Shown: piece by piece, positions 6,793 through 48,500 of the stretch
How positions within the stretch are numbered: the stretch's first letter is position 1
Layout of the letters: each line of letters starts with the position of its first letter
Origin: Primula veris
Taxonomy: Eukaryota; Streptophyta; Magnoliopsida; Ericales; Primulaceae
NCBI GenBank assembly: GCA_963682055.1
Contig: OY821745.1
Span: 18,101,342 to 18,165,341 of the forward strand
DNA length: 64,000 nucleotides
Direction: 5' to 3'
Position numbers and translations under genes: made by a program
Notes under the pieces: model-generated
Databases searched by the model: none
The model's input: the letters and a program-made list of their open reading frames with translations, nothing else
What the model was told of the DNA's origin: nothing

Positions 6793-7114
6793 GAACATCG
6801 TGAAAAACACCCAACTAGACACTTTTTCGTAAAAACGTTCCAAATCAAGATTTGGTTAATGCAAATCTCCACGGTTTCACGACGGGAACACAAATATGCG
6901 TCTTGTTTTTTTTTTTTTTTTTTTTCTGAGATGTATAATAACATGTTTTGAATTTTTAAATTTTACCATAATTTCGAAAGCATGTAATTATACATCTCGA
7001 AAAAAAAAACAAGACGCATATTTGTGTTCCCGTCGTGAAACCATTGAGATTTGCATTAACCAAATCTTGATTTGGAGCGTTTTTACGAAAAAGTGTGTGT
7101 TTTTCATGATGTTC
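6793..7114. repeat. Foldback (hairpin) element
   Basis: The left arm 6793-6945 and the right arm 6981-7114 are nearly exact inverted copies, with only a few mismatches, one short insertion on the left and a different poly-T/poly-A length. They are separated by a loop of about 35 bp. Weaker complementarity extends outward to about 6765 and 7150. Both arms contain TTTCACGACGGGAACAC or its complement. No open frame is convincing. This is a MITE or foldback transposon; its transcript would form a long, nearly perfect hairpin. Confidence 0.85.
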
Positions 7115-9906: not shown

Positions 9907-10499
9907 TGAGTTGGATTGGTTGCAACTTTTAAGGTTGGCATTTTCATTTTTTTCTCCTTTTAACAATATTATTGACAAAGCCATAACTTTGGTCGGTAGC
10001 GTTAGGCTTTTCAACAATATATATAATGAATTGACAATAAACGATGAACACTTCTTGATCTTTATTATTATTCGGCAATTGCCCTTGTTCGGACTACAAC
10101 TTTTATCACTATATTTATGCTCGGATTCGCTGTTTGATCCGGGATGTGATATTTCTCTTCTCTTCGGTGCTCGATTTTCTATCTTGCTCGGTTAGGCTCT
10201 TGATGTGATACATTCTGACAAGTTTTTATCTTTTCTCTCCTTCTCTCTATATTTTTGAGATGTGTTTTCTGGTCCCTTTCTTAGGGGGGATACTTGGTTA
10301 TTTATAGGCAATTATGCCTCCTAGGATGTTAACAAATGTCTCCATCTCGTGGGATTTTCCAGATATGAGTCCCTAGTTAAGTGGGCTTGGGCTTTTTGTA
10401 AAGGGGTGATAACCCATTAAGCGTTGGATACCCCGTTATGATATATGGGCTGATTAATACCCGAATAGAATATTCGGGTCTAATTTTTATGTTCTATCA
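9907..10499 (-). mobile_element. 3' LTR of the Tat1 retrotransposon
   Basis: Read on the minus strand it starts TGATAGAACAT at 10499, directly after a purine-rich GGGAGCACT stretch that could be the polypurine tract. It has a TATAAATA box (complement at 10299-10306) followed by a pyrimidine/GA-rich leader, and ends near 9907. The right-hand boundary is well supported by TG and the purine tract. The left boundary is a guess, because no second LTR copy is present to align with. Confidence 0.5.
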
Positions 10500-10736
10500 A
10501 GTGCTCCCTGACTTCCTCGGTGTGGTTTCCACGTCGAGGGAGTCACGATTGGTCTGTCGAAGAGATTATTTCGGTTTAGCTGTTCCCTATGTTTCATTCA
10601 ACAAGTGCCCCTATTTATAACTGCTCCTTGGGACCCATTTACTGTCTTGGGAACTTGCAAATTTGCTATTTGACTTTGATACGACCCTTGGTATCTTTCT
10701 TCGAGGAAACCCTTGACCTTTCCAAAAATCACCTTA

Positions 10737-10744
10737 TTATAAAA
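10737..10744 (+). promoter_or_regulatory. TATA box of antisense gene A
   Basis: TATTATAAAAAAGG, about 60 bp upstream of the ATG at 10799. Confidence 0.6.
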
Positions 10745-10798
10745 AAGGAATACCCTTCCCACAATTACTTATTCCATCACCACCTTGCTTGTGACTTG

Positions 10799-11110
10799 AT
10801 GGCTTCTCCCAATGGTTCTACTGGAGACAATTCTTCAGATTATGTCGCTTACTTGGAGAATGAAGTCAAGAAGGCTCGCGTTATGAAAAGGAAGCTGGCG
10901 GACGTGACAAAAAGGTTGTCCGATATGGATGCGGCCCATCACTTGACGATGGCTGGCATGGATTGGGCCTTTGAGCGTATAAAGAGGCTCGAGGCTTATT
11001 TGGCTAAGCAAAAGGCATCAAAAAGGGCCTATAAGCTTGCCTTCAAGGAGTTGCATGCTCGGTCTAAACCGAGTTCGGATGACGTTGAAGGAGGCTCTTC
11101 CTCGGAATAA
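10799..11110 (+). CDS. Antisense gene A: small coiled-coil protein (103 aa)
   Basis: Starts at MASPNGSTGD, the first ATG after a TATA box at 10737. A longer reading frame runs upstream through promoter-like sequence and is not used. Residues 14-85 are strongly helical and charged, with coiled-coil spacing (YLENEVKKARVMKRKL, then FERIKRLEAYLAKQKASKR). The C-terminus is acidic and Ser-rich. A polyadenylation signal AATAAA is at 11179. It lies opposite to gag-pol within Tat1 and is paralogous to the next gene. No domain with a known function was recognised, so the role is unknown. The intact frame and complete gene signals suggest it can be expressed, which is inference. Confidence 0.65.
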   Translation: MASPNGSTGDNSSDYVAYLENEVKKARVMKRKLADVTKRLSDMDAAHHLTMAGMDWAFERIKRLEAYLAKQKASKRAYKLAFKELHARSKPSSDDVEGGSSSE

Positions 11111-11341
11111 TTAGTCTTTTGTGATTTCTTTGTATTGGGTGTCATCACCAAGTTGTAATCGAATCATGGAAAAATATTAATAAAACATCTTTTATTTTCA
11201 TTCTTGTCTGTTTATTCCCTTGATACCTTATTGGATGAATTAATTGGATTTGAACTGCTGTAGTTAACCATAAATGCTCTTGGGAAGTTCAAGAGGTTGT
11301 CTTTCTTCGAGATGACCTTTGATCTACCCCTTGTTTCTTCC

Positions 11342-11348
11342 TATAAAA
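11342..11348 (+). promoter_or_regulatory. TATA box of antisense gene B
   Basis: CTATAAAAGGGG, 57 bp upstream of the ATG at 11399; a close match to the plant consensus. Confidence 0.7.
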
Positions 11349-11398
11349 GGGGACTGTCCCTATATTCTTTGTGCAACTCATTCTTTATTAACAAACAA

Positions 11399-11737
11399 AT
11401 GGCTTCTCCTCGTGAAAATAGTGGTGACTACCTTCCTAAATATGTTGCCCATCTCGAGGAGGAGGTTAGGAAGGCTCGTATCCTCGAAAGGAGGGTTGCC
11501 TCTTTAACCATGGAGGCTCGCCGAGCTGCTGAGATGGACGAGCGCTTGGAGGCCATGGAGAGTGGATATCAGAGGTCTCTGATCGACAATATTTGGGCTC
11601 GTGCTCGGATCAAAGAGCTTGAGGCTTCTAGAGATAGGCATATTGCTTCTAAGAGGGCCTACAAACTGGTCCTTAAGGAAGTGTATGCTCGGTCTAAGAG
11701 GAAGCCGAATGACGAAGCAGGCCCTTCTACGAAATGA
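11399..11737 (+). CDS. Antisense gene B: small coiled-coil protein, paralogue of A (112 aa)
   Basis: Starts at MASPRENSGD. It shares with gene A the MASP start, a YVAxLExEVxKAR block, and the C-terminal block SKRAYKLVLKEVYARSK (A has SKRAYKLAFKELHARSK), so A and B arose by duplication. Residues 15-95 form a predicted coiled coil rich in Glu, Arg, Leu and Ala. The TATA box is at 11342 and AATAAA at 11804, giving a compact unit of about 450 bp. The function is unknown. The strong conservation of the C-terminal block suggests a constrained surface. Confidence 0.7.
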   Translation: MASPRENSGDYLPKYVAHLEEEVRKARILERRVASLTMEARRAAEMDERLEAMESGYQRSLIDNIWARARIKELEASRDRHIASKRAYKLVLKEVYARSKRKPNDEAGPSTK

Positions 11738-12043
11738 TTTTATTATTTTTATTGTACTTCCTTTATGTTGACTGCCTCTTCTGTAATGAAGTATCAATCA
11801 ATCAATAAAGACTTCTTTTTCTTGTTTATATCTGAATTACTTTCCCAATGCAATTTATTTTGACTGCGCATGCTTGTGGCTTCTTTAATGACTTTTCTTG
11901 GACCTTGTGTTTGACCTTATCCACTAAATCTTCTTAGCCTCTGCATTTAGGAAGTAATGGGATTTCTTGAGCCCTGTGCACAAATCTTATCCTTTAAATC
12001 TTGACACTGTTGCACTTCCCTATTTGAATGCTGGCGTAACTGA

Positions 12044-12049
12044 CACGTG
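12044..12049. promoter_or_regulatory. G-box (CACGTG) upstream of gene C
   Basis: GACACGTGTAG, about 155 bp upstream of the TATA box of gene C. The same core occurs three times upstream of the Tat2 antisense gene. In plants it is bound by bZIP and bHLH factors; activity here is not shown. Confidence 0.4.
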
Positions 12050-12199
12050 TAGAGGCTTTTTAGAGATTTACCCTCTTTAAATACTGGCCTGAACCCAAAC
12101 GTTTCTTCTCAACAGACGCACCTTTTCAATTTCCCATGTTTTCCAGCGCCTTTTGACGAACGGTTGCAATTCCCCACATTAATCCTTCCTTAATTTATC

Positions 12200-12207
12200 T
12201 ATAAATA
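12200..12207 (+). promoter_or_regulatory. TATA box of antisense gene C
   Basis: TATAAATA, 92 bp upstream of the ATG at 12292. Confidence 0.65.
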
Positions 12208-12291
12208 CCTTCTTAATATATGGATTTCTTCACAATCTCCCCCTTATCTCTCTTCATAATATACAGAATTTTATCTTATAACTTCCTAAAA

Positions 12292-12585
12292 ATGGAAGGT
12301 TCGTCAACCAAATCTGCATTGGTTATGCAAGTGGAGGCTTTTGAAGCCTCCTATGGCCATGCACTAAAGCTGTTGAAGGATGCTGAGGAGGAGTTAAAGG
12401 TGATGTGTTATCACCATACCGAGATGGTTCGGGAATTGACTTGGCTAAGGTCCGAGCTGGATTATTGCCGACGTGCTCGTCGGGCTCTAATCGAAGAGAA
12501 TGAGGTGTTGAGGGGGAACCCGACACTTCGGGATAGGAATGTCTCTGTCGGGCCCTCTCATCGATACCGATCGACTTCCCCCTAG
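12292..12585 (+). CDS. Antisense gene C: small coiled-coil protein (97 aa)
   Basis: Starts at MEGSSTKSAL. Residues 10-75 are helical (EASYGHALKLLKDAEEELK, then VRELTWLRSELDYCRRARR), and the tail is Ser/Arg-rich (GPSHRYRSTSP). It resembles A and B in size, layout and promoter spacing but shares no clear sequence block with them. The frame is intact. Its transcript would continue through a long pyrimidine tract (12587-12760). No function recognised. Confidence 0.6.
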   Translation: MEGSSTKSALVMQVEAFEASYGHALKLLKDAEEELKVMCYHHTEMVRELTWLRSELDYCRRARRALIEENEVLRGNPTLRDRNVSVGPSHRYRSTSP

Positions 12586-12586
12586 C

Positions 12587-12760
12587 GTCCCCCCTTTTTT
12601 TCTTTCTTTTTATTTTTCTTTTTTATTTTTTTCTTCTGCGCTTCCCCTTTCTTTTTCTTCATCTTCTCTCCCATCACTCTTTTCTTTCTATACCTTTCAG
12701 TTTTTCTTTTATATTTTGTTCTCTCTACTTTTCTCCTCTTCTTTCTCACCACTACGATCT
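12587..12760 (+). repeat. Polypyrimidine tract
   Basis: About 170 bp almost wholly of C and T. The frame through it encodes only Phe, Ser, Leu and Pro strings and is not taken as a gene. It lies in the 3' region of gene C; from here to gene D's TATA box I see no other gene. Confidence 0.7.
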
Positions 12761-13244
12761 AACAATAACCCCTGTGATCCTAAGGGTTTTTTGTTACTTC
12801 TAGGGTTTTTGTCATTTTTCATTTTCCTCTTCTTGCTTTTCACTGCTTCCTTATGTTCCTCTTCATCTTTTTCTTCCTCTTCCCCATCGTCGCCTGTTCG
12901 CTTGGCCTGCTGATACAGTCGATCTTCTTTGTATGATCTTTTGTAATAGATTTTCTCGGATGTAATAGATTTCCTTTTTGATGTCCTCTGATGTAATGAA
13001 CAGTGATGTATCCCATCTTATTAATGAAAATTATATTTGCCCCTTTATCTTGCATTTCTTTTGTCTTGCACTTCTTTTTATGTTGCACTTGTGGTTTGTC
13101 TTTTTCTGGAATGTAGGCTTACTCTATTGTCTTCTTTCTTTTATTTCTTACTGTACCGGTGCCATGTGATATCTGAGGCATGGCAGGCTGGTCAAACATG
13201 TATGTTCCCAAGCATTGTCAGACAATACCATATTATCTTTGCTC

Positions 13245-13252
13245 TATAAATA
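13245..13252 (+). promoter_or_regulatory. TATA box of antisense gene D
   Basis: TATAAATA, about 100 bp upstream of the ATG at 13347. Confidence 0.65.
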
Positions 13253-13346
13253 CTCTTCAAACTTTCTTCAGAATATATCTTTTTTCATACCGTGTTTGCT
13301 CCTCTTTCATCTCTCATCTCCTTCTATACAAAAACAATTTTTCCTA

Positions 13347-13826
13347 ATGTCTAAGCCCGTGGTGAGATATCATGCTCAGATGAAGGACTTGGATGCTGAG
13401 GTATCTCGGGTCCGTCGTAGAATGGCTAAGCTTGAGAAGGAGTATGGTGTCCTGGCTTTGAGTTTGTACAACTCTCACCCCGATGAGACAATTAAATGGA
13501 CCGAGATTTCGGCCTTGGGTCGTGAACTTGACCACCTATTGGAGTGTAGGAACACTCTGGCCAACTCCTGGTATGAAGCCGAGGAGATTTGGGATCATGC
13601 TCAGAATGAGTTTGATAACTCCCCTCAAGGCCTCGCTAGTATGACTATTAAAAATGCTCGGCTTAAAGAACAAGTTACTGCCCTTATTGGCGAGAATGCA
13701 TACCTTGCCCGGGAGAATGAATGTTTGGTCGTCATGAACGACTCATATGAAGCTCGGTTAGCTAGCTCTGCTCGGGCGACTTCCTCTCGGTCTGGCAGTT
13801 CTGTTGTCCCACCCACTGATCCTTGA
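13347..13826 (+). CDS. Antisense gene D: coiled-coil protein (159 aa)
   Basis: Starts at MSKPVVRYHAQ, the first Met after the TATA box. Residues 10-40 (QMKDLDAEVSRVRRRMAKL) and 85-145 (a LKEQVTALIGENAYLAREN block) are coiled-coil-like. The middle has Trp-containing segments, and the tail is Ser/Ala-rich (SSARATSSRSGSS). It is the longest of the five small genes. The frame is intact and opposite to gag-pol. No catalytic motif, signal peptide or membrane segment is seen. The function is unknown; an oligomerising or scaffold-like protein is the most that composition allows. Confidence 0.65.
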   Translation: MSKPVVRYHAQMKDLDAEVSRVRRRMAKLEKEYGVLALSLYNSHPDETIKWTEISALGRELDHLLECRNTLANSWYEAEEIWDHAQNEFDNSPQGLASMTIKNARLKEQVTALIGENAYLARENECLVVMNDSYEARLASSARATSSRSGSSVVPPTDP

Positions 13827-13971
13827 TTAGATTAGTCTATTTTTCTTATTTTCTATTTTGGAACTTGTATTAGAATAGTTGTATCTTTTCGTATTTCGTG
13901 TCTTTGTCTTGTGAACCGTTGCAACGCCTCGTACTTTGTGCCTTTTCGTTTTTTGTACCCTTGAATTTCTT

Positions 13972-13978
13972 TATAAAT
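13972..13978 (+). promoter_or_regulatory. TATA box of antisense gene E
   Basis: TTATAAATGC, 82 bp upstream of the ATG at 14054. Confidence 0.55.
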
Positions 13979-14053
13979 GCTCCCTATTGCCTGTACTTCA
14001 TTATCCAATCTCCTTTTCTCTCTCTTGTTTTTTCTAACTTGCTTTTGTTTGAG

Positions 14054-14422
14054 ATGTCTCCCATCACTAGATCTGTCTCCAAAAATAAAGCCCTTCTGGA
14101 AGAGGAGCCTACTTTTTTGCTACCTCGTCCCCCTGGTTTCGGGGAAGAGGATTTGACTCCTCTTCAGCTAAAAGAAATCGAGATGTCGTGGCTGAAACAC
14201 GATCTTAAATGTGCTCGGACTGAAGTTAGGAGGTTTAAACAATATTGGGATGAGGAGGGTACTGCTCGTTTTAAAGCCGAGCAAAAATGTAAATCTCAGT
14301 CCTATGCTTTGCAACAGGCTGAGATGGCGATTTCTCGTTTGATTAAGGAGAGGGATCATCTCCAGGAGCTCTTGGCTAAGAGGGATGCCGAGGAAGGTGG
14401 TAGTTCTAGGGCTCAGAATTAG
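14054..14422 (+). CDS. Antisense gene E: coiled-coil protein (122 aa)
   Basis: Starts at MSPITRSVSKNK. A Pro/Gly segment (LLPRPPGFGEEDLTP) precedes a helical region, residues 48-112, with KHDLKCARTEVRRFKQY and QQAEMAISRLIKERDHLQ. The tail is acidic and Ser-rich (EEGGSSRAQN), like the tail of gene A. AATAAA lies at 14496. The frame is intact. No function recognised; grouped with A-D by size, strand, promoter layout and tail composition. Confidence 0.65.
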   Translation: MSPITRSVSKNKALLEEEPTFLLPRPPGFGEEDLTPLQLKEIEMSWLKHDLKCARTEVRRFKQYWDEEGTARFKAEQKCKSQSYALQQAEMAISRLIKERDHLQELLAKRDAEEGGSSRAQN

Positions 14423-14509
14423 AGAAGTATTCTAGTGTTGAAGTTGTAATTTTTATTTTTCCCGTTGTAACTGGTTGTTTTCCCCTTTGTGGATGAATAA
14501 AACTTGTGT

Positions 14510-15159
14510 TTTGCAACTCGATCCTGTCTATTTTATTTGCTTTGCCTTTATGTTGATATCATTCGATGTCTCAGTATCGGACACCGAGCACGGTGCACCG
14601 TGGTTATCCCCCCGGAGAGCGTTGTTAGACTCGATGCTTAAATGCCGTCGAGCTAGGAACGGTCTCCGTCCACCTTGGTCGGTGTGCTTTTCGGGTAAGA
14701 CACAGTTTTGTGTCGAGGAACTGAGTCGTAGGACATCCTCGGTTTGGTAATATTGGTAGCGTATGCTGGAAGCTTTTCGTGGTAGGGTCCACTAGCCGTT
14801 TATTTAGGTGTAATGATGTGAACTGCCTTGGGTAGTGGGATACACTATCTGACGTGGCAAGATCTGGAGCCTTGATTTGCTGACATAGCAGCAGTTGGGG
14901 ACTTTTCTGTGGTTGGAAAAAAGATGAACCTCTGTCACACGAAAAGGCGGTTATTATTTTATTCTTTCTGTAGTTCCTCTCCTTTTAACTGTGCCAAGTA
15001 ATCCCATTAGTTTTTACCCCATAATTTGCTGGAAAAATATCTCTTATCTTCTCTCTCTAGGGTTTGTTCTTCCCGCCAAAAAATTTTCTGCCTCTCTATC
15101 TAGGGTTTCTCCTGACTGTTGAGAGATTTGCTGCTGCGTTCCCCTTCGTGCTCTCGAAT
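14510..15159. other. Spacer before the four-exon antisense gene
   Basis: No convincing gene. The 3' part (15040-15159) contains TCTAGGGTTT twice, typical of plant 5' leaders, so it probably holds the promoter and 5' UTR of the gene starting at 15160. No clear TATA box was seen. Confidence 0.4.
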
Positions 15160-17688
15160 ATGACTGTAAGTGTGTTCGAAATATTTGTATTTGATTTGTT
15201 GTTGTGGTCATGTATGTGGCATTGATATATTGTCGTGTTTGCCTATATATGTTTATTTAGGAGGTTGATTGGTAATTTGTCTTCATGTATAGGATTTTTG
15301 TTGCACCGGAAAACTTTTGGGTTTCTGGTAATTGAGGGGGCGGAGGGGGCTCTCATCGTGTGATTTGTGTTTGGTTAGTATATTGATGTAGTGTTTATGA
15401 TGTTTGGATAGGACATTCTGGCCCAATGCCTGGCCCAAGTTGGCCCATTTGTGGAGGAAGACTTTAAGAAGTCGGCCGGAATACCCGCCGACATACGTAT
15501 TCGGCTACCCATCTCGGATGAGGAGGTGATGGGTGTTGTTCCTGCCGGTGAGGTAGCTGTGCGCTCATCGACATTCTTTACCGGGGGTCTTCGACTTCCT
15601 TTCATCGAGTGGATGGCTTCGTTCTTTGAGGCCGTCCAGATTGCTCCGGCCCAATTGGCCCTGAACGGCTACCGTACCCTGAATGGTATTCAAAGGTTGT
15701 CGGAATTGTCTGGGATACATGTCGAAATGAAAGATGTGTTCGGAGTCTACAGTTTGAGTTTTGAGCATCGTAGTTCGCACTTGAAGACATTGCGCTCTTT
15801 CTCTCGGCTTGTCATCGGTCTTCCCGATACTAACAAAGAGCATAACCTCGGCATCGTTATTGCTTCCGGAGAATGGGGTTGTGATGGGTACCAGATTCCG
15901 GGACCTGCCACGATGGCTCCCGATATTCCAGACCTAGGTACTGCCAATGTTGAAGCGCTGTTAGCGCTTTGGAACTGGTGGGGGCCTGGACCGACGAAGG
16001 ATCCGGCGAGCCGTACTGCTCCCATGTTGTTAGGTTACCCTGCGGGGCCGGTGACCAAGGGCAATCCTGCGCCCGAGATTCCCGTCGAGACTGAGGAGGA
16101 CTTCCTCAAAATTGTGAAGGCGCGAAATGCTTCTCGGGGAGGGAAAAGGCCTGTTCGTCCTAAGCGCCGAGCATCGGACCCCGCTGTTGGTACCCCGAAG
16201 AGGGCTAGAGGGACTGAGACATCGGTAAGTGAGGAAGGTGCCGATGTTGGTACTGGAGTGGCGGTGGTTGCTTCTTCCCAGGGTGATACCACCGAGGAGG
16301 CTTCTATTCATGCCGATGTACGTGTATATTTTTTTTTTTGTGTGAATTGTTTCTTTTAATTCTCTTGTTCGTCGCTTTATTTGTCATCCTGTTTCAGCTA
16401 CTGACTTCTTCGTTGGTTACCCTTGCTCTTGCCCGGTCTATGGGTATTATTGTGTTTCAGGGGTCGTTCGACAACATATTCAGACATATTAACCTCCTGG
16501 TGAACATGGGCGAGGATACGATGACCCTGCCTGTCACCTCGCCTATCCGTACCGAGGACCCGATAGATCTGCCTGTTTGCTCGCCCATCCGTACTGAGGA
16601 GGTGATCGAGCATAGGGCCACTGAGACCGATCCTTTGGAGAAGGAGGTGAGGGAGGAAGTGGAGGTGGAAGCCGGCAAAGAGACTGCCGTGGATGGTGTG
16701 GTGGGTGGCGAGGATGAGGTTCTCGAGGGACCTGAAAAAGTGTTGGAGGATGGGGTCGCAATGACCCGTTACATTGAGCGGTGTGGGGGTGAACTGTTGG
16801 AGCAACCCCGAGTCTTGAGGATGGGGTATACTGCTCTTAAGCCCCTCGTCGTCAAGGATGCAGAGAAAATAGCTGCTCGGCCTGTAATGTCGGTTATAGA
16901 GCAGGCCAGCACTGATGTACTTCGGGTATGTTGCGCACGTATTTTGTTATATAGGTCGTGATGCTCTTATTTTGGCTGGTGTCTGATGTTTCTAAATACA
17001 TGTTTTTGTGGATATCGTGGTGTTAAGGGATCAGCTGTCAGCACTAGGGGCTGAGAAAGAGAACCTGATGGCCGAAAATAAAGCAATGGTCAAGGATACA
17101 GTTCAGAAAATGAAGTTGGTCTCCGAGCTAGAGGCGGAGAACAAGAAGCTGATGGCCGAAAGTAAAACAACGGCCGAGGAGAAGGCCCAGATGGCTAAGT
17201 TGGCCTCTGATTATGAGAAATTGGTGGGAGATAACTTATGCCTGATCGAGGAAGTCGAGAAGTTGGGGGCCGAGAAAGAGCATTTGGTCGAAAAATACGA
17301 CCTACTGGAGGCCGATAACTTGCTCATGGCGGAGGATGTGGAGGCCGGAACATCAGAGGTTGCTGCTCTGAAAGTAGAGCAAGCAGATGAACGGAAAAAG
17401 TTTGCAATGATGGCTAACTTTTCTGTCTTTTGCGCTCATGTCCGAGCTTTAAACTTTGCTAAGGTACCACTGTCGGACCGGGCATGGTCGGAATTGGTGT
17501 ATCCCTGTCCGCAAGGTGCCCCTCCTAAGCCTCTAGATTGGGCCAATCTTCGGGATGAGGAGCTCCCACGGCTACCGGGGCATACTACATCAACGGCGCT
17601 CCGTCCCCATTCCAGGTCGGTTCCATCGACTTCTCGGTCTGCTGCTGCTGTTACTCCCCCACCCGCATCCCCTCAGGTGGAGCCTTGA
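15160..17688 (+). CDS. Four-exon antisense gene: Transposase_28-like (putative gypsy-type) domain plus coiled coil (676 aa)
   Basis: Exons inferred at 15160-15165, 15412-16317, 16461-16925 and 17035-17688. All introns are GT-AG and phase 0, and the spliced frame is open from ATG ACT to the TGA at 17686. Exon 1 codes only Met-Thr. Exon 2 carries a domain with LRLPFIEWMASFFEAVQIAP and the following QLALNGYRTLNGI, similar in pattern to the putative gypsy-type transposon domain (Transposase_28) known from antisense ORFs of Tat elements; its end is basic (GGKRPVRPKRR, nuclear-signal-like). Exon 3 is acidic with repeated PIRTE units. Exon 4 is a long coiled coil with repeats of AENKxLMAE, then a Pro/Ser tail. 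The role is unknown. Confidence 0.65.
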
Positions 17689-17912
17689 CCATTTATTTGC
17701 GGTATTTTCTATGTAGCTTAGCGTAAAATCTTTTGGTACCCGAATTGTGGGTCTCTTTTGTAACTAGAAAGATAATTCTTTTGGGAAATGGTAATATAGG
17801 TACTATGTTTTCTTTCTGTTTGCTTTCCTTGTTAATTTCCTTGTTTGTGGGTCGTCATCTTTTGAAGGATGTAAAAATAAAATCTTGTCAGGTACCTGTT
17901 AACCCCCTTGCC

Positions 17913-18374
17913 ATGGTGGTATGGACCTCGCCTAGTCGTAGTGTAGGAGATGTTATAGATGGTCGTGAAAGATCTAAAGCGTCGCTAACTTCTGAACTGA
18001 ATTCCGCTCGTCGTGAAATCGAGGGTCTGAATATTCATATTTCAAACTTGTCAATTCGATTACGTGACTTGGGAGAGAAGTTCAGCAAGAAGACCGCCTA
18101 TTATACGGCAAATAAGGGAAAGGCTAAAGAGCTTCTTGGTGCGCTTCGGCGCTCTCGTGATGAAGCCCGAGGCCGGGTGACGAGCTTGAACTTGGTTCTA
18201 GGGGCCGTTTTCGAGGACGCGGACCTGTTGCTATCCTTTGCCAAAGCGTATTGGGCCCGAAGTCGCGCATTAGAGGTGCTCGATCATGTAAAAGGGATGT
18301 GTGGTGTTGCCTGGGCAGAGCGCATGGGTGATGCTATGGCCGGGGTAACTGAGACCACGGCTGCCTTGAACTGA
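17913..18374 (+). CDS. Antisense coiled-coil ORF (153 aa)
   Basis: The start was placed at MVVWTSPSRS (GCCATGG context). The frame is also open upstream to 17733, where it reads as hydrophobic, unconserved sequence. An AG at 17890-17891 (TTGTCAG) could be a splice acceptor feeding this exon, so it may be a downstream exon of a longer gene. Residues 28-90 are coiled-coil-like (LNSARREIEGLNIHISNL, then RLRDLGEKFSKKTAYY). The C-terminal half is Ala-rich and helical. No known domain. The position and composition match the other antisense ORFs. Confidence 0.5.
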   Translation: MVVWTSPSRSVGDVIDGRERSKASLTSELNSARREIEGLNIHISNLSIRLRDLGEKFSKKTAYYTANKGKAKELLGALRRSRDEARGRVTSLNLVLGAVFEDADLLLSFAKAYWARSRALEVLDHVKGMCGVAWAERMGDAMAGVTETTAALN

Positions 18375-18640
18375 GTGGATGCGGTCGTATAGGAACGTTT
18401 GGGGACTCAAATTTTCTCATTGCGAGAGATTCATTTCGCTGATGCCGTAGAGACCTCAGCGTCTGTTGACGGGTTATCGGATTGATGATTGAGTAGCTTG
18501 TTTTGTCATTTTACTTGTAGCTTGTATATATAAAAAAAATCTTCGTTTTTCTACTTTTGTGTCTTTTCTTTATTTGCGGATGAATATTCATCTCTTCCTT
18601 TCTTCCCCATTTTTTTTTTTTTTTTTAGGCACATGCTACT

Positions 18641-19276
18641 ATGTCGCACCAGGCTGGTTCTCCATGCCTAGTTAGTCCGGGGCTAGGACCTACTGGTGTT
18701 GCCCGGGACGAGGTCTCATCTGGTACGGCTAGTGAAGGGCATGCCAAGTGGCCTTACATCGTTTTAATGGGCAAAAACGTCAAGTTGGTCGATCAGTGTA
18801 CCCGACTTAGGGCCAAGTTGAAAATCCAGGCGTCCTCTTTTCGTGAATATGTTCGTCGTGCCGAGCATGTCGTTGAGGTTCAGGAACGTCGTTTAGATCG
18901 ATATTGGCGTGTAAAGGAAAAATACCTCGGTAAACTAAAATCGTTGGTATCCCAAGCCAATATGTTGGTGAAGTATTTTCGTTTGTCCCGATCCAGATAC
19001 GATGCTTCTGCGGCCATGATCGAAGCTCGTAAGCTTCCCTTCGATGATGCTCGTCGTAAAGTGGCCTCGGATGCTCACGAGATCGCTAAAGGAGCCGAGT
19101 TCTCCGTGCGGCTTAAGACGCTTACATGTGTTGGTGCTCATACGACCAACTTTGATGCCCTCATTTCTGAGGAGCGTTTCGATGGCAAGGAGACCGATGG
19201 GGATACGGCGACAGATGACGAAGAGGTAGAGCTCGGTCAATTGCCGTCGTGCTCCTCATGTAGTAGTAGTTCTTAA
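18641..19276 (+). CDS. Antisense coiled-coil ORF (211 aa)
   Basis: Starts MSHQAGSPCL. The ATG lies 12 bp after a 17-T tract ending in TAG (18612-18628), which looks like a splice acceptor, so an upstream non-coding or short coding exon is likely. Residues 48-130 are basic and helical (VDQCTRLRAKLKIQASSF, then VVEVQERRLDRYWRVKEKYL). The end is acidic and finishes in a Ser/Cys string. The frame is intact. No known domain. It is the member of the antisense cluster nearest the tandem array and pol. Confidence 0.5.
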   Translation: MSHQAGSPCLVSPGLGPTGVARDEVSSGTASEGHAKWPYIVLMGKNVKLVDQCTRLRAKLKIQASSFREYVRRAEHVVEVQERRLDRYWRVKEKYLGKLKSLVSQANMLVKYFRLSRSRYDASAAMIEARKLPFDDARRKVASDAHEIAKGAEFSVRLKTLTCVGAHTTNFDALISEERFDGKETDGDTATDDEEVELGQLPSCSSCSSSS

Positions 19277-19539
19277 ATCAATTTCGTTAAGGTTGGTTGT
19301 ACCTTGTTGCCTCCGTAATGCGGGCGAGGACTATTTGCTTTATTTCTTTCTTCTTGATTTCGGATCTTCTCATTGTCGTACTGATATTTCATTGATTGGA
19401 TTGATTTTTCTTTTCTGATTTCTTCGTTCGATGTTTCATTGCCTCCGTAATGTGGGCTAGGACTATTTGTTTTCCCTTGTTTACCCCTTTTTCCTTGATG
19501 GAGTTGGTACCTGCATAAGTGGGACAGAGCTATTATTTC

Positions 19540-20165
19540 ATATGCCTCCGGTTACGTTGGAGGACTTTTTTGTTCCTAGGCAATAAGTAATACATGTCGT
19601 TTAGGAATTTCTTATACCCCCGGTTACGTTGGGGGACTTTTTGTATTCCTAGGCAATAAGTCATACATGCCGTTTAGGAATTTCTTATGCCCCCGGTTAC
19701 GTTGGAGGACTTTCAATGTTCCTAGGCAATAAGTCATACATGCCGTTTAGGAATTTCTTATGCCCCCGGTTACGTTGGAGGACTTTCAATGTTCCTAGGC
19801 AATAAGTCATACATGCCGTTTAGGAATTTCTTATGCCCCCGGTTACGTTGGAGGACTTTCAATGTTCCCAGGCAATAAGTCATACATGCCGTTTAGGAAT
19901 TTCTTAGGCCCCCGGTTACGTTGGAGGACTTTCAATGTTCCTAGGCAATAAGTCATACATGCCGTTTAGGAATTTCTTATGCCCCCGGTTACGTTGGAGG
20001 ACTTTTAGTATTCCTAGGCAATAAGTCATACATGCCGTTTAGGAATTTCTTATACCCCCGGTTACGTTGGGAGACTTTTAGTATTCCTAGGCAATAAGTC
20101 ATACATGCCGTTTAGAAATTTCTTATACTCCCGGTTACGTTGGGGGACTTTTAGTGTTCCTCAAC
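19540..20165. repeat. Nine-copy 72-73 bp tandem array 3' of Tat1 pol
   Basis: GGTTACGTTGG recurs at 19550, 19622, 19695, 19768, 19841, 19914, 19987, 20060 and 20133. Each unit contains TCCTAGGCAATAAGTCATAC and GCCGTTTAGGAATTTCTTA. Copies are nearly identical. Tandem arrays in the 3' region of Tat and Ogre elements are known seeds of plant satellite DNA. Confidence 0.95.
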
Positions 20166-20251
20166 CATGGTAAATAACAAAATATCTTATGAATTCAAAA
20201 ATAATGTTGTGACAAAGTAGAGGTACGTTGTGACCTGTACTAGAAGCCAGT

Positions 20252-23200
20252 TCATACGTAGTACTTCTTGAGGTTGGTCACGTTCCAAGAATTCTTTTCT
20301 CCTCGGCTATTTTCGAACAGAACGCTTTTGATCTTATAGGTCGCCTCGCTTGTTCTTTTGATGATTTCGTATGGGCCTTCCCAGGTAGGGCTCAGTTTGC
20401 CATGTATCTCGTTTCTGGTATAGACCGTTACTCGCCGTAACACCAGCTCTCCCACCATAAATTCCTTGGTCCCTTTCACCCTTTTGTCATAGGTTTGCTT
20501 AACGCTTTGCTGGTACTTTGCTAGTGTAAGGGCTGCTATCTCTCGTTTCTCGTCCAGCATGTCGAGTTCTTCTCTCATCCTTTGTTCATTGTTTCCTTGC
20601 TCGACTAGAGTTGTTCGGAGTGTAGGTAGCCCGATTTCCGTTGGTATGACGGCCTCGACGCCGTGCGCTAAACTGAACGGGGTTTCCTTGGTGCTCGTTT
20701 TTGGCGTAGTTCGGCAAGACCATAAGACGTTGAGCAGTCGTTCAGACCATCTTCCCTTTACCCGTTCGAGGGTCGTCTTGATACCATCCAGGACAGTTCG
20801 GTTCGTAACCTCGGCTTGCCCATTACCCTGTGGGTATGTTGGGGTCGAATAGAATTTCCGGATACCGAGTTCTTCGTACCAAAGCTACAGCTTGGCGTCC
20901 TTGAATTGGGTGTCGTTGTCTGCAACAATGGCGTATGGTATGCCGAACCTAGTGATGATGTACTCCCAGATGAATTGTTTAACATTACTGGCTTTAATCT
21001 CTCGGAGAGGCTTAGCCTCGACCCATTTGGTAAAGTAGTCCGTCGCTACGATCAGATATTCCACACTGCTGGGTGCCCTGGGAAGTTTCCCGATAATATC
21101 AATTGCCCATTGCGCGAATGGCTAGGGTGCCGATACCGGGGTCATCATCGATGATGGGAGACGAGGTATTTTGGCGAATCTTTGGCACTTGTCGCATCTT
21201 TGGACATAAATGTCTGCATCTCGTTTGATATAAGGCCACCAATATCCTTGAGTGATTGCCTTGTTGGCGAGGGATCGCCCTTTGATGTGTGCTCCGCAAG
21301 ACCCTTCGTGGACCTCTTCCAAGACAGGCTGTTGCAGTTTGGGCCGGACGCACAAAAGGTGAGGGCCTCGGTAATTGGATTTATACAGCTTGTCGTCCTC
21401 AGATAGCCAGAACCGAGGGGCTTTTCTTGTGACCTTCAACGCTTTTATCTTGTCTTCCGGGAGCGTCCCGTTTCGCAGATAGTGAATCATGTCGTCCATC
21501 CATCCTAGCTCGTATTGTACTGATGTCACTCGGTCTATTCTTTTAGTTATGCTCGAGGCTTCCAGAAGCTCCACTGTGATCGTCCGAGTGTCGGTCAACG
21601 TTAATGTCGAGGCTAGGGTGGCCAAGGCGTCGGCATGTGTGTTTTCGGTGTGATTAATTCTTATTAGTTCGCATTGTGCGAACATGACCATTATGCTCTG
21701 GACTTTCTCTTGGTAGAGGATCATTCGGTCATCCTTGGCTTGGTATTCTCCAGTAGCCTGGTTGACGATTAGCATGGAGTCGGAGCTAGCAATCAAGTGG
21801 GTGCATCCTAGGGATCGGGCAATGAGCATGCCATTGATCATGGCTTCGTATTCCGCCTCGTTGTTAGTAGCTCGGAAGCCCAACTTGATGCTTTTCTCGA
21901 TGATCGCCCCTTCTCTGGACTTGAGGACGATGCCTGCTCCCGATCCGTCCTTGGTGGACGATCCGTCAACATGTATCTCCCAGTGCGACTGTGGTAAAAT
22001 GGTCAGGGGCTCGTCATACCCTTCGGTGAACTCGGCGACGAAATCAGCCAACACCTGTCCCTTTATGGCGTGTCGGGGTGCGAATTCGATATGAAATTGG
22101 GATAGCTCGACCCCCCATGCCGCTACCCGACCGCTGATGTCCGTCCGTCGAAGGGACTCCTTGACGTGGAACTTCGTGTAGACTTGGACTTTGTGAGCTA
22201 TGAAGTGGTGTGGCAGTTTCCGGGTAGCAACGACCAATGCCAAACACAACTTTTCCAACGGTAGGTAGCGTGTTTCGGCTTCGACCAAAGTCTTGCTGAC
22301 GTAGTAGATTGGGAATTGTTCGCGTCCTTCTTCTCTTAGGATGACTGCGCTCACGGCTGTAGTGGAAATTGCCAGGTAGCAGGCCAGAATATCTCCTTTA
22401 TTCGGCCTCACTAGCAGTGGCAGCGTCCTTAGATAATCTTTGAGGTTATTGAACGACTCCTCACACGCCGGGTCCCATACGAACTTTTTATCCTTCTTAA
22501 GGGTCTCAAAAAATGGTCGTCCCTTTTCTGCGGATCGACTGATGAACCTGCTTAGTGCGGCCATCATCCCCGTGAGCTCTTGCACCTGCTTCTTATTCTT
22601 GGGTGCTGCTAGGTTTTGCAGAGCCGTTATCTGGTCGGGGTTAGCCTCTATTCCTCTTTGGCTGACCATATGCCCCAAAAACTTCCCTTTGCTGATGCCG
22701 AATGCACATTTGCTAGCATTTAGCTTTAGTTTGTGCCCGCCCAGCGTTTGGAAGACGTCTTTAATGTGCTGGAGGTGGGAAGTGGCATTTTCGCTCTTGA
22801 TGACCATGTCGTCTATGTACACTTCCATTGTTTTCCCTATATGCTTTTGGCATACCTTCATTATCATCCTTTGGTATGTTGCTCCTGCATTTCGTAGGCC
22901 GAATGGCATAACCGTATAGCAATAGTTTCCCAAAGGCGATATGAACGATGTCTTTTCTTGATCTTCGAGGGCAAGGGGGATTTGATGATATCCCGAGTAT
23001 GCATCGAGGAAGGTCATCCTTTCTGCTCCTGCCGTGGCGTCCACTAGTTGATCAATCCTTGGTAGGGGGAATGGATCCCTCAGGCAGGCTTTATTCAGAT
23101 TGGTGAAGTCTATACAGACTCTTTCCTTCCCGTTCTTCTTTGGGACGACGACCGGATTAGACAGCCACTTCGGGTAGAACACTTCCCGAATTGCTCCTGC

Positions 23201-24067
23201 TGCCAACAACTTTCGGACTTCAGCAATTATAGCCGCTCTGTGCTGGACGGACACCTTCCTGCTCCTTTGAGTTATGGGCTTGTATTCGGCATTTACGCTG
23301 AGGTGGTGGCATGCTGTTTTCGGATCTAGACCGGGCATGTCTTTGGGGCTCCAAGCAAACTTATCGATGTTGCAGAAGAGGAACGCTTCTAACTCCTCGG
23401 ATTCCTCTTTAGGAAGGCTATCTCCGATAAGGAAGTAGTGCTCCTCGTCCGTATCCGGAATATACACCTTCCGGAGTGTTTCTCCGACCTGTTCTTCAAC
23501 AACCCTCTCAGCTCGTGCTATTTGGTCGATTAGCTTCCCTACGTTTGTGGGTTGTTCGACAACTACAAGTTGTCTCTTCAACGCAGCGGTGATGTCTTCA
23601 CAGCGTCTCGAATCCTCCTGACATCCTCGGGCTGTCTCGATCTCCCCCTTGGCATTAGGGTATTTCACTTTCTGGTGGTAAGTGGAAGGTATCGCCCGCA
23701 TAGCATGAAGCCATGGTCGGCCCAAGATCGCATTGTGGCCGGAATTATCATTGACCACTAAGAATTCCACGGGGTCAGATACGGATCCCGTGGTAACATT
23801 TAGGACGATCTTTCCCAACGGTTTAGTCGTCTCAGAGATGAACCCGATCAGGGTGATGTCAGTGGGCTGTAGATCTTGCAATTTGAGCTCCATCTTGTCA
23901 AAGAGCTCTTTGTACATGATATCAGAAGAGGCTCCTTGGTCGACAAGCACTCTACTGACGGTGCCTATACCGATCTGGACGCGTAGGTTAATGGCGTCTC
24001 CGTGAGGGTATATCACCCCTTCTTCATCAAGATCTGAGAAAGAAATGGGTGGGTGTCGTTGCGGCAT
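20252..24067 (-). pseudogene. Tat1 pol polyprotein: protease, RT, RNase H, second RNase H, integrase
   Basis: One continuous frame of about 1270 codons, broken only by two stops (21122-21124 and 20885-20887). In order: protease with LVDQGASSDIM (DQGA instead of the usual DTG/DSG); reverse transcriptase with VPKKNGKERVCIDF and the catalytic YIDDMV; a conventional RNase H region; a second, archaeal-type RNase H (HVDGSSTKDGSGAG, NNEAEYEA, HADALATLAS); the integrase zinc-binding region (HEGSCGAH ... CDKC); the integrase core (SPTWEGPY follows in the C-terminal part). Both stops fall in integrase and could each come from one C-to-T change on either strand. As it stands, translation would end before the integrase core. 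Confidence 0.85.
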
Positions 24068-24069
24068 GC

Positions 24070-25740
24070 ATTGCCGCTTTGAGGTCGACGCCTGTGAAGC
24101 TTTAGCTACTTGCCCAAAGTGGGCCAGCTGCCGTTGTTGGGATCAATCCCCCCCGGTGCTCTTGGGCCTTGACAAGTGGACAACGTTGATCATTTTCCCT
24201 TGTCGGCTGTCCGTTCCCTCGATGACTAGCTGCTTGCCTTTGTCCCTATTGCCTTTGATGAATTTATTGAGCAATCCCACGTCTCCCCACGCGTTCATCT
24301 TCCACCGCAGGTTTCTGCAATGCTCGGTGATATGGCCGTGATCCTCATGATAGGCACAGAAGAGCTTGGTGTCTCTGGAATCAGGGTGGGAATGGATTTT
24401 TTCGGGTCGGGAATACCAGTTTTCTCTGCATATATCCTTTAGGATATCTTCGGCAGACAGATTGAAAGTGTACCCAACTCGACCGGTTCATAACGCCTCT
24501 GGCGTTCCCTTTCTGGCCCACGACCTTGCTGAGGTGGTTTGGGCGGCATTGGATAGGCGATTCGGAGCGGCTTGGGCTCGGGCTCTATGGGTATGTATTC
24601 CCTTCGCTGAACCTCGGGACCCTTGTCCCGTTTGGATTGGGGGACTGGTTCCCCATGATTGTTCTTGGCTCTCTTGCGGTCCACCTGCGCTTCCCGGACC
24701 GTCTCTCTTCTTGGTGGATCCCGGTTGAGGACTCGCATCTCTTCATTCTTATCGGTAAGGTGGGTGCAATAGGCCAGAAGGGCGTCGGTGGTCGGAAAAT
24801 TCTTGCCGATGAACTTCCTTCTCGCCCAATAGCCGCTGGGGATAGAGTTGAAGTTCTGGATGGCTATGTTCTTGGCGTATTGCGGGATCTGGTTCGCCAC
24901 GTCGATGAAGCTTATGCAGTAGTCCTGGAGCCTCTCATTGGGCAACATAGCCATTTTTAGAAGGGTTTCAATGTTAACCTTCTTCTTCCTATGAGCGGCG
25001 TATCGGGTGGAATATGCACGGAGGAGCTCAGCCCAGCTTCATATGGATCCCCGTGGTAGATTATGATACCACGACGACGCCTCCTGACCCAAGCTGTTCT
25101 TAAAAAATTTGCACATCAGTGCACTGTCGTCACTCCACAACTCCATCCTTGTTTTGTAATGTCGGAGGTGATCGATGGGGCAGCTCCTTCCATCATATAG
25201 TCTGAATTCGGGGATGACAAACCCGACATGATTGCGGTACCGAGTTATCTGATCGGTACATGGAGTCTCTTGGCATACGTCCCAAGCCTGTTGGAACGCT
25301 TCATCCGGTGCCGAGTAGTGAGGGGCGTATCCCCCATATGGGTGTTGTGGATAGTAACCGACTATGACCCTGTGGTCGCCGTTCCTCCCGTTGTTCGGAT
25401 TTCTGTCGAGGTCAGGTAGAGGAGGAGCGCCTTTGTGATCGTAGACCGTCGGGGTTATCCTCGGGATGGGTTCTCCTTGTCTCGGCATCCTCGTATCATG
25501 AGGTCGGCCCATCGCTGCCATCGCTGCTCGGTAAGCCGAATCTTCCGCTTCACGTCGAGTGTCAGTTTGCGTGTTGGTCGGTTGGATGGGTGGTATCGTG
25601 ATGCCGGCCGCTGCCATGGCCGACATGCATGCCCCTAGCTGGGCTTGCAGCAGGGCATTACGTTTTTCTGCGGTCCGTGCCAGTGCGGCCGTAGTTCTAT
25701 CTTGTCGAACAGGAGTTTGTAGTTCCACCGTGTACGGCAT
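24070..25740 (-). pseudogene. Tat1 gag, interrupted
   Basis: The segment 25740-25039 begins MPYTVELQTPV, is followed by a Pro-rich region, and contains the gag core (CQETPCTDQITRYRNHVG, then HLRHYKTRMELW and SSWYHNLPRGSI), ending in a TGA where Arg is expected. The frame continues through 24954-24439 (NERLQDYCISFIDVANQIP). A frameshift near 24480 moves to another frame carrying a CAYHEDHGHITEHC zinc-knuckle-like motif, which runs into the protease start region. Gag packages element RNA into particles. Here it has at least one nonsense codon and one frameshift. Confidence 0.7.
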
Positions 25741-25826
25741 AATTATCCGCGGTGGGAGGGTTGGATACGGGACTACCCATGTTGTAGTATTATTAGTATC
25801 GTGATACCTATGTTATACCATGTTTA

Positions 25827-26018
25827 CACTAAAAAAAAAATCCAAATAGCGACGGGATTAGTGACGGTATTTTTTGTTACGAGCTTATTAGCGACGGTTT
25901 TTGTGACGGCTTTGTGACAGTTTAGTCAATTTGCGACAGATTTGTGTCAACTTTTTAAATTAGCGACAGGCTTGTGACAACTTTTGACTCTCACTAAATT
26001 AAACATTATTTTGTAGTG
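25827..26018. mobile_element. CACTA-type MITE (192 bp) with TTA duplication
   Basis: Starts CACTAAAAAA and ends TTTTGTAGTG. It is flanked by TTA at 25824-25826 and 26019-26021, the 3-bp duplication typical of CACTA elements. Subterminal motifs GCGACGG, GTGACGG and GCGACAG repeat across the left two thirds, as in En/Spm relatives. No transposase. Confidence 0.85.
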
Positions 26019-28500: not shown

Positions 28501-28571
28501 AGAAAGAGCATTTTTTTTTTATTTGGTTTGGGAAACAGTAAAAAGAAAGCGAGTAGAGAGAGAGAGAGAGA

Positions 28572-28751
28572 ATGGAAGAGGAGAGCTTAGCAAGTGGGCA
28601 AAAGGCGAAGGAGGAGGATGAAACTATGGAACAACAACACTCGGACTCATCTGATTCCGATTCTGATTCGGATGATAACGAAGCGGTTGAGTTACAAACC
28701 CTAGAAACTGAGTTATTCAATAACCCCACCAACTACGACTCTCATATCCAA
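28572..28751 (+). other. Duplicate (upstream) copy of SART3 exon 1
   Basis: An ATG at 28572 opens 60 codons (MEEESLASGQKAKEEDETME, then an acidic SDSDSDSDD run and VELQTLETEL) ending CAA before GTACTC. This is almost the same as the exon at 29253-29432: same length, same phase-0 donor, same flanks. The duplicated block is roughly 28510-28870 against 29160-29585. Either copy could splice to exon 2 at 30532. The upstream copy has the more ordinary leader (GA repeats); the downstream copy sits directly behind an (AT)n run. Which is used cannot be told from sequence. Confidence 0.75.
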
Positions 28752-28765
28752 GTACTCCCTTCTTC

Positions 28766-28815
<50 letters not shown>

Positions 28816-29220
28816 GTATTATACACCTGCTTTGGTTATTCCCTTATTCTCCATTTAGAGCATGTTTAACGGTTTCGAATAATTCCACTCGAGCGTTTAA
28901 CAAATGAATGTAGTCCCTGGCTTGTATAGTCTACTCCAGACATAGTTGTCAATTTGGAAACATTATGGGGAACGGAAACGGAAACGGAAGCAGAAATTGC
29001 AGATTAATTATTTTTTTATGTAAAACGGAAAACGATAAAAATAAAATATGAATGTCTCTTTTACAGAAATTATATTAATTTATGGATTCTAAATGATGCG
29101 AATGAATATTAAATACGTTATCTAAATATTACATGGATGGAAAAATAAATAAAAAAAGAACCAGAAAGGGGCCTATATTGTTTTGGTTGTGGTTGGGAAA
29201 CAGTAAAAAAGAAAGCGAGA

Positions 29221-39557
<10,337 letters not shown>

Positions 39558-43800: not shown

Positions 43801-44022
43801 AGAGTGAACGCCAGACGTTTTCAAAATGAAGACCTCGTGCTACGGAAAGTGAACAACAACTCAAGAGTACAGTCCGACGGGAAGTTAGGCCCCAACTGGG
43901 AAGGCCCCTATCGAATCCTTGGGGCAATAGGAAACGGTGCCTATCTGTTGGGTCGCCTGCCCGACGATGCCCCGGTGGACCGACCTTGGAACGTCAACAA
44001 TCTTAGGAAGTACTATCAGTAG
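40835..44022 (+). pseudogene. Tat2 pol fragment: RT, two RNase H modules, integrase
   Basis: Starts near EPEVTDLVGFLLQYLDNFTW. RT contains VPKKNGKLRVCIDY and YIDDMVVK. Stops interrupt at 41021-41023 and 41525-41527, there is a frameshift near 41700, and another stop lies near 42085. The frame 42139-43254 carries the archaeal-type RNase H (LHADGAANKKGSGLG) and the zinc-binding HHCC region (CEKCQKYAP). One in-frame stop at 43252-43254 precedes the integrase core frame that runs to 44022 (VADNGGQFTGARLK, PSYPQCNGQAEVTN, WEGPYRIL). It is more decayed than Tat1 and cannot be functional. Confidence 0.85.
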
Positions 44023-44107
44023 AATGACTTGACCTTCGTGTTTTGGTACAAATATGATGTAAATATGCCTGAGGGCCTTATGAATAAAACTGTTGTTCTT
44101 TCAGAAT

Positions 44108-44405
44108 TGGCACACCGGTTTAAATTTCTGTAAATTTCTAAGTGTTTCAGAACACCCGAGCCTATATAGCACCCCGGTTTAAATTTCTGTAAATTTCTAA
44201 GTGTTTCAGAACACCCGAGCCTATATGGCACTCCGGTTTAAATTTCTGTAAATTTCTAAGTGTTTCAGAACACCCGAGCCTATATGGCACCCCGATTTAA
44301 ATTTCTGTGAATTTCTAAGTGTTTCAGAACACCCGAGCCTATATGGCACCCCGGTTTAAATTTCTATAAATTTCTAAGTGTTTACAGAACACCCGAGCCT
44401 CTGAG
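44108..44405. repeat. Five-copy 59-bp tandem array 3' of Tat2 pol
   Basis: CCGGTTTAAATTTCTGTAAA starts near 44115, 44174, 44233 and 44351, and a CCGATTT variant near 44292. Each unit ends AACACCCGAGCCTATAT. A degenerate sixth unit follows to about 44500. It has the same position relative to pol as the Tat1 array, with unrelated sequence. Confidence 0.9.
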
Positions 44406-44748
44406 GCACCCTTCTGTCCCAAGAGGGTTTCGGCCCTCAAGGGACCCCAGTTTAAATTTTATAAATTTATTGAGTATTGCCACGGTATGCCCCATGAGGG
44501 TTTCGGCCCTCCGGAGCTCCAGTTTCTTAGTTCAGATTATGTGTTATTTAAAAAGAATGGACCCTATGGCGAAGCATAAAGGCCCACTCATTGGGAGCAC
44601 ATAGGAAACACAATGGAAACGAAAACAGAAAAATAAAAACACATAGTCCAAAAGCCAAAACTGTTCATTCACTCATTTCTCAGAAAAGCTATTACAAGCT
44701 AAGAAAACAAAAGAAATTACATCAAAAATAGAGAAACACACCCAAGCC

Positions 44749-48282: not shown

Positions 48283-48500
48283 CAAGGTTTCAAATGGCGC
48301 TAGGGGGTGAGGGGGCGCCTGGCGGAAAGTCATAATTTTTCACATTTTTTCATAATTTTTCACAATTTTATTAGGCATTCATATAATAAACGTGTTATAA
48401 ATAAATTTACCCAGTTAAATTGAACATTTCAAGTCTATTAGCCTATAGTTATACTATTAAAATCCATTTTTTAAAGTATTGCTGAAAACAAAATGATAAA
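48283..48500. repeat. Short dispersed repeat in MTR4 intron 3
   Basis: Starts with a GC-rich head (CAAATGGCGCTAGGGGG) and has an AT-rich body. Head and body each have a partial relative upstream of the gene (47060-47115 inverted, 46670-46710 direct). The class is uncertain (SINE or MITE). Confidence 0.4.

Follow-up and report, generated by a model that had tools for sequence, protein, structure and literature searches.

The Tat (Ogre/Retand) lineage of plant long terminal repeat (LTR) retrotransposons is marked by an archaeal-type RNase H lying between the RNase H and the integrase (PMC6317226). Retand elements are already known to carry open reading frames (ORFs) antisense to gag-pol: an antisense TRP28 ORF is reported from 97% of the clusters of one survey (PMC11963269) and from 23% of the Retand elements of another (PMC6317226). 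The maize element Grande also has an antisense gene, gene23, between pol and the 3' LTR; the review that describes it presents one such gene, with its own upstream promoter and a nuclear product (PMC7264820). One survey has questioned whether heterogeneous extra ORFs function at all. Here we describe a 64-kb stretch of Primula veris DNA, called the window below, that contains a Ty3/gypsy LTR retrotransposon on its minus strand and, between pol and the 3' LTR of this element, eight accessory genes on the plus strand (o1 to o8).

We conclude, with a probability of roughly 70%, that these eight are real accessory protein genes, a set shared throughout a high-copy, Retand-like family of Tat retrotransposons. 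All eight are under coding constraint, the block is present in every copy examined, five of the genes have conserved TATA boxes and one has conserved splice sites. Where the review of Grande describes a single gene, this element has eight, five of them with a separate TATA box and one with three introns (PMC7264820).

How does the locus compare with the surveyed elements? Like the Retand TRP28 elements, it has an LTR of about 0.5 kb, a tandem array of the kind often found beside pol, and a long region between pol and the 3' LTR with antisense ORFs, one of which weakly resembles TRP28 here (PMC11963269). That region measures 9.75 kb in the window, against 2,933-6,566 bp in the Retand survey; this single element has eight constrained genes, where the survey counted 104 antisense ORFs of 600 bp or longer over 63 clusters (PMC11963269). 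The same survey dropped ORFs shorter than 600 bp unless they bore TRP28, and the other applied a cut-off of 250 codons (PMC6317226). The five small genes described here could therefore not have been seen by either. A preliminary description of this DNA was aware of no published element with so many such genes; we likewise found no comparable set in listings and abstracts of open-licence papers, and the published cut-offs hide genes of this size.

Results

Presence of the block across the family

Copies of the element were sought in a genome of 436.5 Mb (34 contigs) with o4, o5 and the integrase as queries. First-look candidates numbered 1296, 1281 and 1278, respectively, similar counts that are not copy numbers. 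The best 40 for each query were scored, and by our count the three listings hold at least 97 distinct copies, the window included. A first set for alignment comprised the best 20 of the 39 other copies found with o4 (L009-L028, 10 kb each), which with the window make 21 rows. A second set of 20 copies, selected by similarity to o5, is more divergent. All are best matches rather than a random sample, and the copies are mosaics.

The block is not peculiar to the window. It is colinear, with the same order and orientation, in all 20 other copies chosen by o4, and the individual genes are 80-98% identical to those of the window. Local losses occur: by alignment, o1 is missing from L019 and o8 from L026, the block ends early in three copies (past o4 in L018, within o6 in L017 and within o7 in L010), and internal stretches of o6 are absent from L009 and L013. 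The copies chosen by integrase, 40 scored including the window, give the same answer. For 17 of the other 39, the listings place a match to o4 or o5 6.5-7.5 kb away in the same orientation. The first 10 of the remaining 22 were fetched, and the o4-o5 stretch was present in every one, so that this part of the block was found in 27 of 27 examined copies (17 by coordinates, 10 fetched). The coordinate comparison covered 30 of the o5 places, the first in a list of 40; the other ten fit no unmatched integrase place by eye.

Selection and indels

We calculated dN/dS by the Nei-Gojobori method over all pairs of the 21 rows, with bootstrap limits, which follow each value in brackets below; the pairs are not independent, and gapped rows were dropped codon by codon. 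In their own frames the genes give values of 0.18-0.38 across the block, o4 excepted, and the upper bootstrap limits are 0.24-0.57. Shifted plus-strand frames give 0.9-2.0, the lone exception being o2 at 0.59. One reverse frame per gene is also low (0.22-0.50), because it shares wobble positions with the frame of the gene. As a benchmark, four gag sequences of the family gave a pN/pS of 0.48 in frame and 1.02-1.07 in the shifted frames. A sliding profile of 30 codons shows the constraint switching on and off near the gene borders.

The exception, o4, at first counted against a coding role. Its dN/dS in the first set is 0.95 (0.51-1.61), but with a dS of 0.024 the comparison has little power, since these copies had been selected by their similarity to o4. 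In the second set o4 gives 0.31 within the set and 0.32 against the first set, the shifted frames give 1.00-1.27, and 17 of the 20 copies lack an in-frame stop.

Insertions and deletions (indels) follow the same borders. Exons carry 0-2.6 indels per kb per copy, compared with 6.8-23.7 for introns and for the spacers between genes; the LTR part and the sequence past o8 carry 4.7-5.9. Lengths divisible by three account for 62 of 105 indels in exons but only 219 of 1,148 in spacers and introns. Chance ORFs were rejected as an explanation, the contrast being a pyrimidine-rich stretch at 12586-12912, part of a listed ORF of 124 amino acids (aa): here dN/dS is 0.57-0.93 in the plus frames and 0.55-1.19 in the reverse frames, and the listed frame collects 55 in-frame stops over the rows. 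The preliminary description had named a dN/dS near 1 between copies, and a block missing from all other copies, among the results that would count against its reading. The second is contradicted by the colinear copies described above. The ratios found, 0.18-0.38 and, for o4 in the second set, 0.31-0.32, are of the opposite kind, and a chance or purely noncoding origin of the block appears unlikely.

Five small genes and their TATA boxes

The preliminary description reported five consecutive small intact frames of 103, 112, 97, 159 and 122 aa, each behind a TATAAA-type box. Both statements hold on the plus strand, the boxes lying 57-102 bp before the ATG codons. The 103-aa frame, o1 (10799-11110; dN/dS 0.20, 0.12-0.33), is open over about its full length in 16 of 20 copies; its TATAAA (10738-10743) lies 61 bp before the ATG and is kept in 10 of 12 covered rows, counting the window. 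For o2, of 112 aa (11399-11737; 0.26, 0.15-0.41; open in 16 of 20, with 13 of 14 indels multiples of three), the box at 11342-11347 lies 57 bp upstream and is kept in 20 of 21 rows. The 97-aa gene o3 (12292-12585; 0.21, 0.13-0.35) is open in 18 of 20 copies, with zero indels counted, and its box (12200-12205, 92 bp before the ATG) is kept in all 20 rows. Next come o4, of 159 aa (13347-13826; open in 15 of 20), with a box at 13245-13250, 102 bp before the ATG and kept in 21 of 21 rows, and o5, of 122 aa (14054-14422; 0.18, 0.11-0.28; about full length in 12 of 20 by our count), with a box at 13972-13977, 82 bp before the ATG and kept in 20 of 20. Several of the frames were also said to be followed by AATAAA. 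This is true of o1 (at 11179, kept in 19 of 20 rows), o2 (11804, 20 of 21) and o5 (14496, 20 of 20) and not of o3 and o4, which have no following AATAAA.

The five boxes are the sole TATAWA sites on the plus strand within 2,862 bp of spacer. In 2,000 base shuffles a mean of 0.31 of the five genes had such a box, and five of five was never reached. The placement of the boxes is stronger evidence than their conservation, which is weighed in the Discussion.

A four-exon gene

That o6 has four exons, as first proposed, is supported by conserved GT-AG sites and by introns rich in indels. The following counts of splice and start sites exclude rows in which gaps exceed one half. Exon 1 (15160-15165) consists of ATG ACT, found as ATGACT in 18 of 19 covered rows, and the donor GT at 15166 is present in 19 of 19. 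Exon 2 (15412-16317; 302 codons; dN/dS 0.20, 0.16-0.24) has its acceptor AG in 18 of 19 rows and its donor GT in 20 of 20. Exon 3 (dN/dS 0.38, 0.24-0.57; donor GT in 19 of 19) ends at 16925 and may begin at either of two acceptors, 16398 or 16461; both are in frame, and each has AG in 20 of 20 rows. Exon 4 (17035-17688; 0.23, 0.18-0.31; acceptor AG in 19 of 20) encodes a coiled-coil-like C-terminus. The exon lengths are divisible by three, and in-frame stops are absent from 14 of 20 rows in exon 2, 17 of 20 in exon 3 and 13 of 18 in exon 4.

Ten of 11 exon-2 members match PF04195 (Transposase_28) at E up to 0.1, the best at 8.8e-4. The exon also encodes a basic KR-rich stretch that by eye resembles a nuclear localisation signal. 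Exon 3 of the window contains an in-frame tandem repeat of 42 bp x 2.1 (16511-16600). In exon 4, an in-frame repeat of 84 bp (28 aa), present 2-2.8 times, occurs in 14 of 20 other copies and is absent from the window.

The two downstream genes

Two further ORFs had been described after o6. Both are constrained, but neither has quite the extent first given. In the window o7 (17913-18374; dN/dS 0.22, 0.16-0.31) is truncated, as 18372-18374 reads TGA in place of the CGA present in 17 of 18 covered rows; the constrained frame continues to 18485, making 190 aa, an end reached in 12 of 20 copies by our count. The listed ORF of o8 starts at 18641 (dN/dS 0.29, 0.21-0.42, over 18641-19273), and in the sliding profile its first 42 codons appear unconstrained. 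The constrained part, of 169 aa (18767-19276), begins near an inner ATG at 18767, which is ATG in 14 of 17 covered rows, compared with 11 of 17 for the outer one. From the outer ATG o8 is open in 6 of 20 copies, and in 12 of 20 once frames from the inner ATG are added. All eight of its indels are multiples of three.

Relationships and structures of the proteins

Of the 21 profile pairs that o1-o5, o7 and o8 make, one shows homology: o1 and o2 are clear paralogues (hhalign probability 99.3%, E 2.7e-20), and a separate TATA box precedes each. The remaining 20 pairs reach a probability of at most 7.1% and show no homology. The suggestion of an amplified captured family is thus borne out for o1 and o2 only. 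The preliminary description also called all the proteins rich in coiled coils, which is borne out in part: heptad periodicity is significant against shuffles (p<0.05) in two of eight stretches, those of o1 and o4.

The AF2 model of o4 predicts an all-helical protein with three long helices (mean pLDDT 76). Foldseek returned 0 matches to it in the PDB at E<=0.001; of the sequence searches of the PDB, one gave no match and one gave seven weak matches (best E 0.032). A scan of IMG/VR with o4 yielded nothing useful. Three protein searches, with o4, o5 and o6 exon 2, found four metagenome relatives in all, at 73-85% identity, among them homologues of o4 (P0002, 77%; P0003, 73%) and of o5 (P0001, 85%). 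Nine stretches of the block (all but o6 exon 3) match no Pfam family above the cut-off; in these nine, the plant mobile domain (PF10536) is not matched at E up to 1, nor are DUF1985 and DUF287, the families of the VANC proteins considered in the Discussion.

The element and its classification

The 3' LTR (9973-10499, minus strand; 527 bp, TG...CA) has its polypurine tract side at 10500. It was recognised by matching sequence beyond gag, in the place expected of the 5' LTR, in three of four further copies fetched over that part, L030 being the one with no match. Two bases past the LTR in those three copies stands a motif like a primer-binding site, TGGCGCCGT in two and TGGCACCGT in one. The region between pol and the 3' LTR (10500-20251) contains all eight plus-strand genes and, between o8 and the integrase, an array of 8.6 copies of a 73-bp unit (19535-20161). 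Remnants of gag-pol follow at 20252-25740 on the minus strand, with protease, reverse transcriptase (RT), RNase H, archaeal-type RNase H and integrase split into several frames. The gag stretches have no Pfam match, and the label gag is given for their position and dN/dS. No 5' LTR is detectable in the window copy, homology to the other copies ends at 25790, and the 5' end of this copy is lost. Just past this point, 25791-26000 resembles by eye the end of a CACTA-type transposon.

A frame of 981 aa contains RT (308-467), RT_RNaseH_2 (531-629), RVT_3 (700-818), which we take to be the archaeal-type RNase H, and Integrase_H2C2 (908-964). This order places the element in Tat (Ogre/Retand). Within Tat, a Retand-like element is indicated by the tandem array and by the Transposase_28-like antisense gene, with the qualification that the PF04195 match is weak. 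A plant mobile domain in an extra ORF is found in 57% of Ogre elements and is not universal there (PMC6317226). The lack of a match to that domain here makes Ogre membership less likely.

Age and mosaic structure

Within each of the three copies the two LTRs have an identity of 97.0-97.5% over 316-428 bp. At 1.3e-8 substitutions per site and year, these insertions would be roughly one million years old. In the copies picked by o5, the o4 stretch and its flanks are 74-95% identical to the window. Identity as low as 74% suggests that the set of genes long predates the insertions. Distances between pairs of copies correlate weakly between genes within o1-o5 (r 0.19-0.58) and well within o6-o8 (0.58-0.87), which indicates that versions of the genes have been reassorted and that the copies are mosaic. 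The array differs between copies as well. Among 20 other copies, in four of which the array was not reached, seven share with the window a unit of 73-75 bp, and nine have a 37-bp unit or composites built from it. Array type mostly tracks the version of o6-o8; L011 is an exception.

Discussion

Eight antisense ORFs are constrained, with dN/dS below the value for gag of the same family, and five stand behind conserved boxes. These are proteins that can be tested, and they suggest that the element makes a larger protein set of its own than previously thought. We propose that RNA polymerase II transcribes each of the five small genes on its own from the integrated DNA rather than from the LTR. The genomic RNA driven by the LTR would be the complement of the antisense genes; the introns of o6 would remain unspliced in it and survive reverse transcription. 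Because the genes are antisense, introns would not be removed and promoters would not be used at the RNA stage, and integrated DNA would be the sole template for their expression. This arrangement may explain how three introns persist in a retroelement. It also offers a simple reason for having accessory genes in antisense, since introns and promoters so placed go unnoticed in the genomic RNA.

What might the proteins do? We suggest, tentatively, that they cooperate in the nucleus on the DNA or chromatin of the element as transcriptional or anti-silencing regulators, by analogy to GENE23 of Grande and to VANC, and in view of the KR-rich stretch of o6. The basic, coiled-coil, Transposase_28-like o6 would be the partner that contacts DNA, and the short helical proteins would serve as adaptors. 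VANDAL is a DNA transposon, not an LTR retrotransposon. In Arabidopsis, VANDAL resembles our element by analogy only, in that it encodes an accessory protein, VANC, with an anti-silencing role (PMC5735166). The targets often form tandem repeats, and these vary from one related copy to another (PMC5735166), as the array does here; DUF1985 and DUF287, the VANC families, differ from the proteins of the block. A bolder version, which we regard as doubtful, holds that a separately promoted, antisense, multi-protein nuclear system, in which the small helical proteins behind TATA boxes work with the Transposase_28-like protein, keeps the element's own chromatin open through the fast-changing tandem array, and that many Retand elements have such sets, overlooked because of cut-offs of 200-250 codons.

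Several observations weigh against our reading of the block. The box hexamers rank in the top 4-22% for conservation within their own spacers, only moderately above the spacers themselves, and for o1 to o5, respectively, 40, 8, 2, 18 and 70% of the other hexamers made only of A and T are equally well kept. No TATAWA lies within 250 bp upstream of o6 or o7. The window has TATATATAAAA at about -115 of o8, but just 2-4 rows cover and keep it. The boxes are thus putative promoters, predicted from the sequence. For o6, only 2 of 27 indels in exon 2 are multiples of three, the match of the window's exon 2 to PF04195 scores 14.9 bits, below the curated cut-off of 26.2, and the structure model of this exon failed (mean pLDDT 33), which leaves contact with DNA a conjecture.

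The products might instead form one hetero-oligomeric coiled-coil assembly, an idea of the preliminary description, as part of a particle or scaffold serving the element. The three helices predicted for o4, the periodicity of o1 and o4 and the 28-residue repeat of o6 exon 4, equal to four heptads and seen in 14 of 20 other copies, would fit such an assembly, but six of the eight stretches are no better than shuffles at 0.05 and gene versions reassort between copies. Reassortment would mildly favour loosely coupled proteins over one co-adapted complex, a point that also weighs on our own reading, and we think a single assembly unlikely. Another view is that the block was captured as a cluster of host genes, or that a different element nested here. 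Its introns, its AATAAA signals and the individual TATA boxes do resemble those of ordinary host genes. Yet the block is present in every examined copy, even where the o4 stretch and its flanks are only 74-80% identical to the window, so any capture must be old; the nine stretches searched match no Pfam family above the cut-off, and no search aimed at host homologues was made. Such an origin strikes us as distinctly unlikely.

Nor do the genes appear to descend from one ancestor. Tandem duplication clearly produced o1 and o2, TATA box included, but the lack of homology in 20 of 21 profile pairs refutes it at the sequence level beyond these two, and as the source of all the small genes it is highly improbable. 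Regulatory antisense transcripts have been discussed for elements of this kind in a review (PMC7264820), and antisense transcription itself, through double-stranded RNA or interference, could have been the function, with the frames as by-products. Constraint specific to one frame, the rarity of indels in exons and a scarcity of stops confined to the coding frames largely refute this as the sole explanation and leave it scarcely credible. We thus prefer to regard the block as a family-wide set of accessory protein genes.

Other features of the window

A second Tat-like element lies on the plus strand at 41066-44411, with RVT_3, Integrase_H2C2 and SH3 and with a 59-bp tandem array of its own at 44108-44411. 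The 13 ORFs of at least 90 aa listed between 38 and 52 kb all look unlike the small antisense genes by eye. On the minus strand, 6616-6741 matches the plastid petD group II intron in Rfam and is probably plastid DNA in the nucleus. Close by, at 6819-7096, is an inverted repeat whose 97-bp arms are 97% complementary and 84 bp apart. The stretch 28514-29499 is duplicated at 79% identity and carries an acidic, SDSDSD-rich frame twice. Finally, 47396-51500 resembles the exons of a helicase gene, with Helicase_C in one ORF scoring just under the cut-off.

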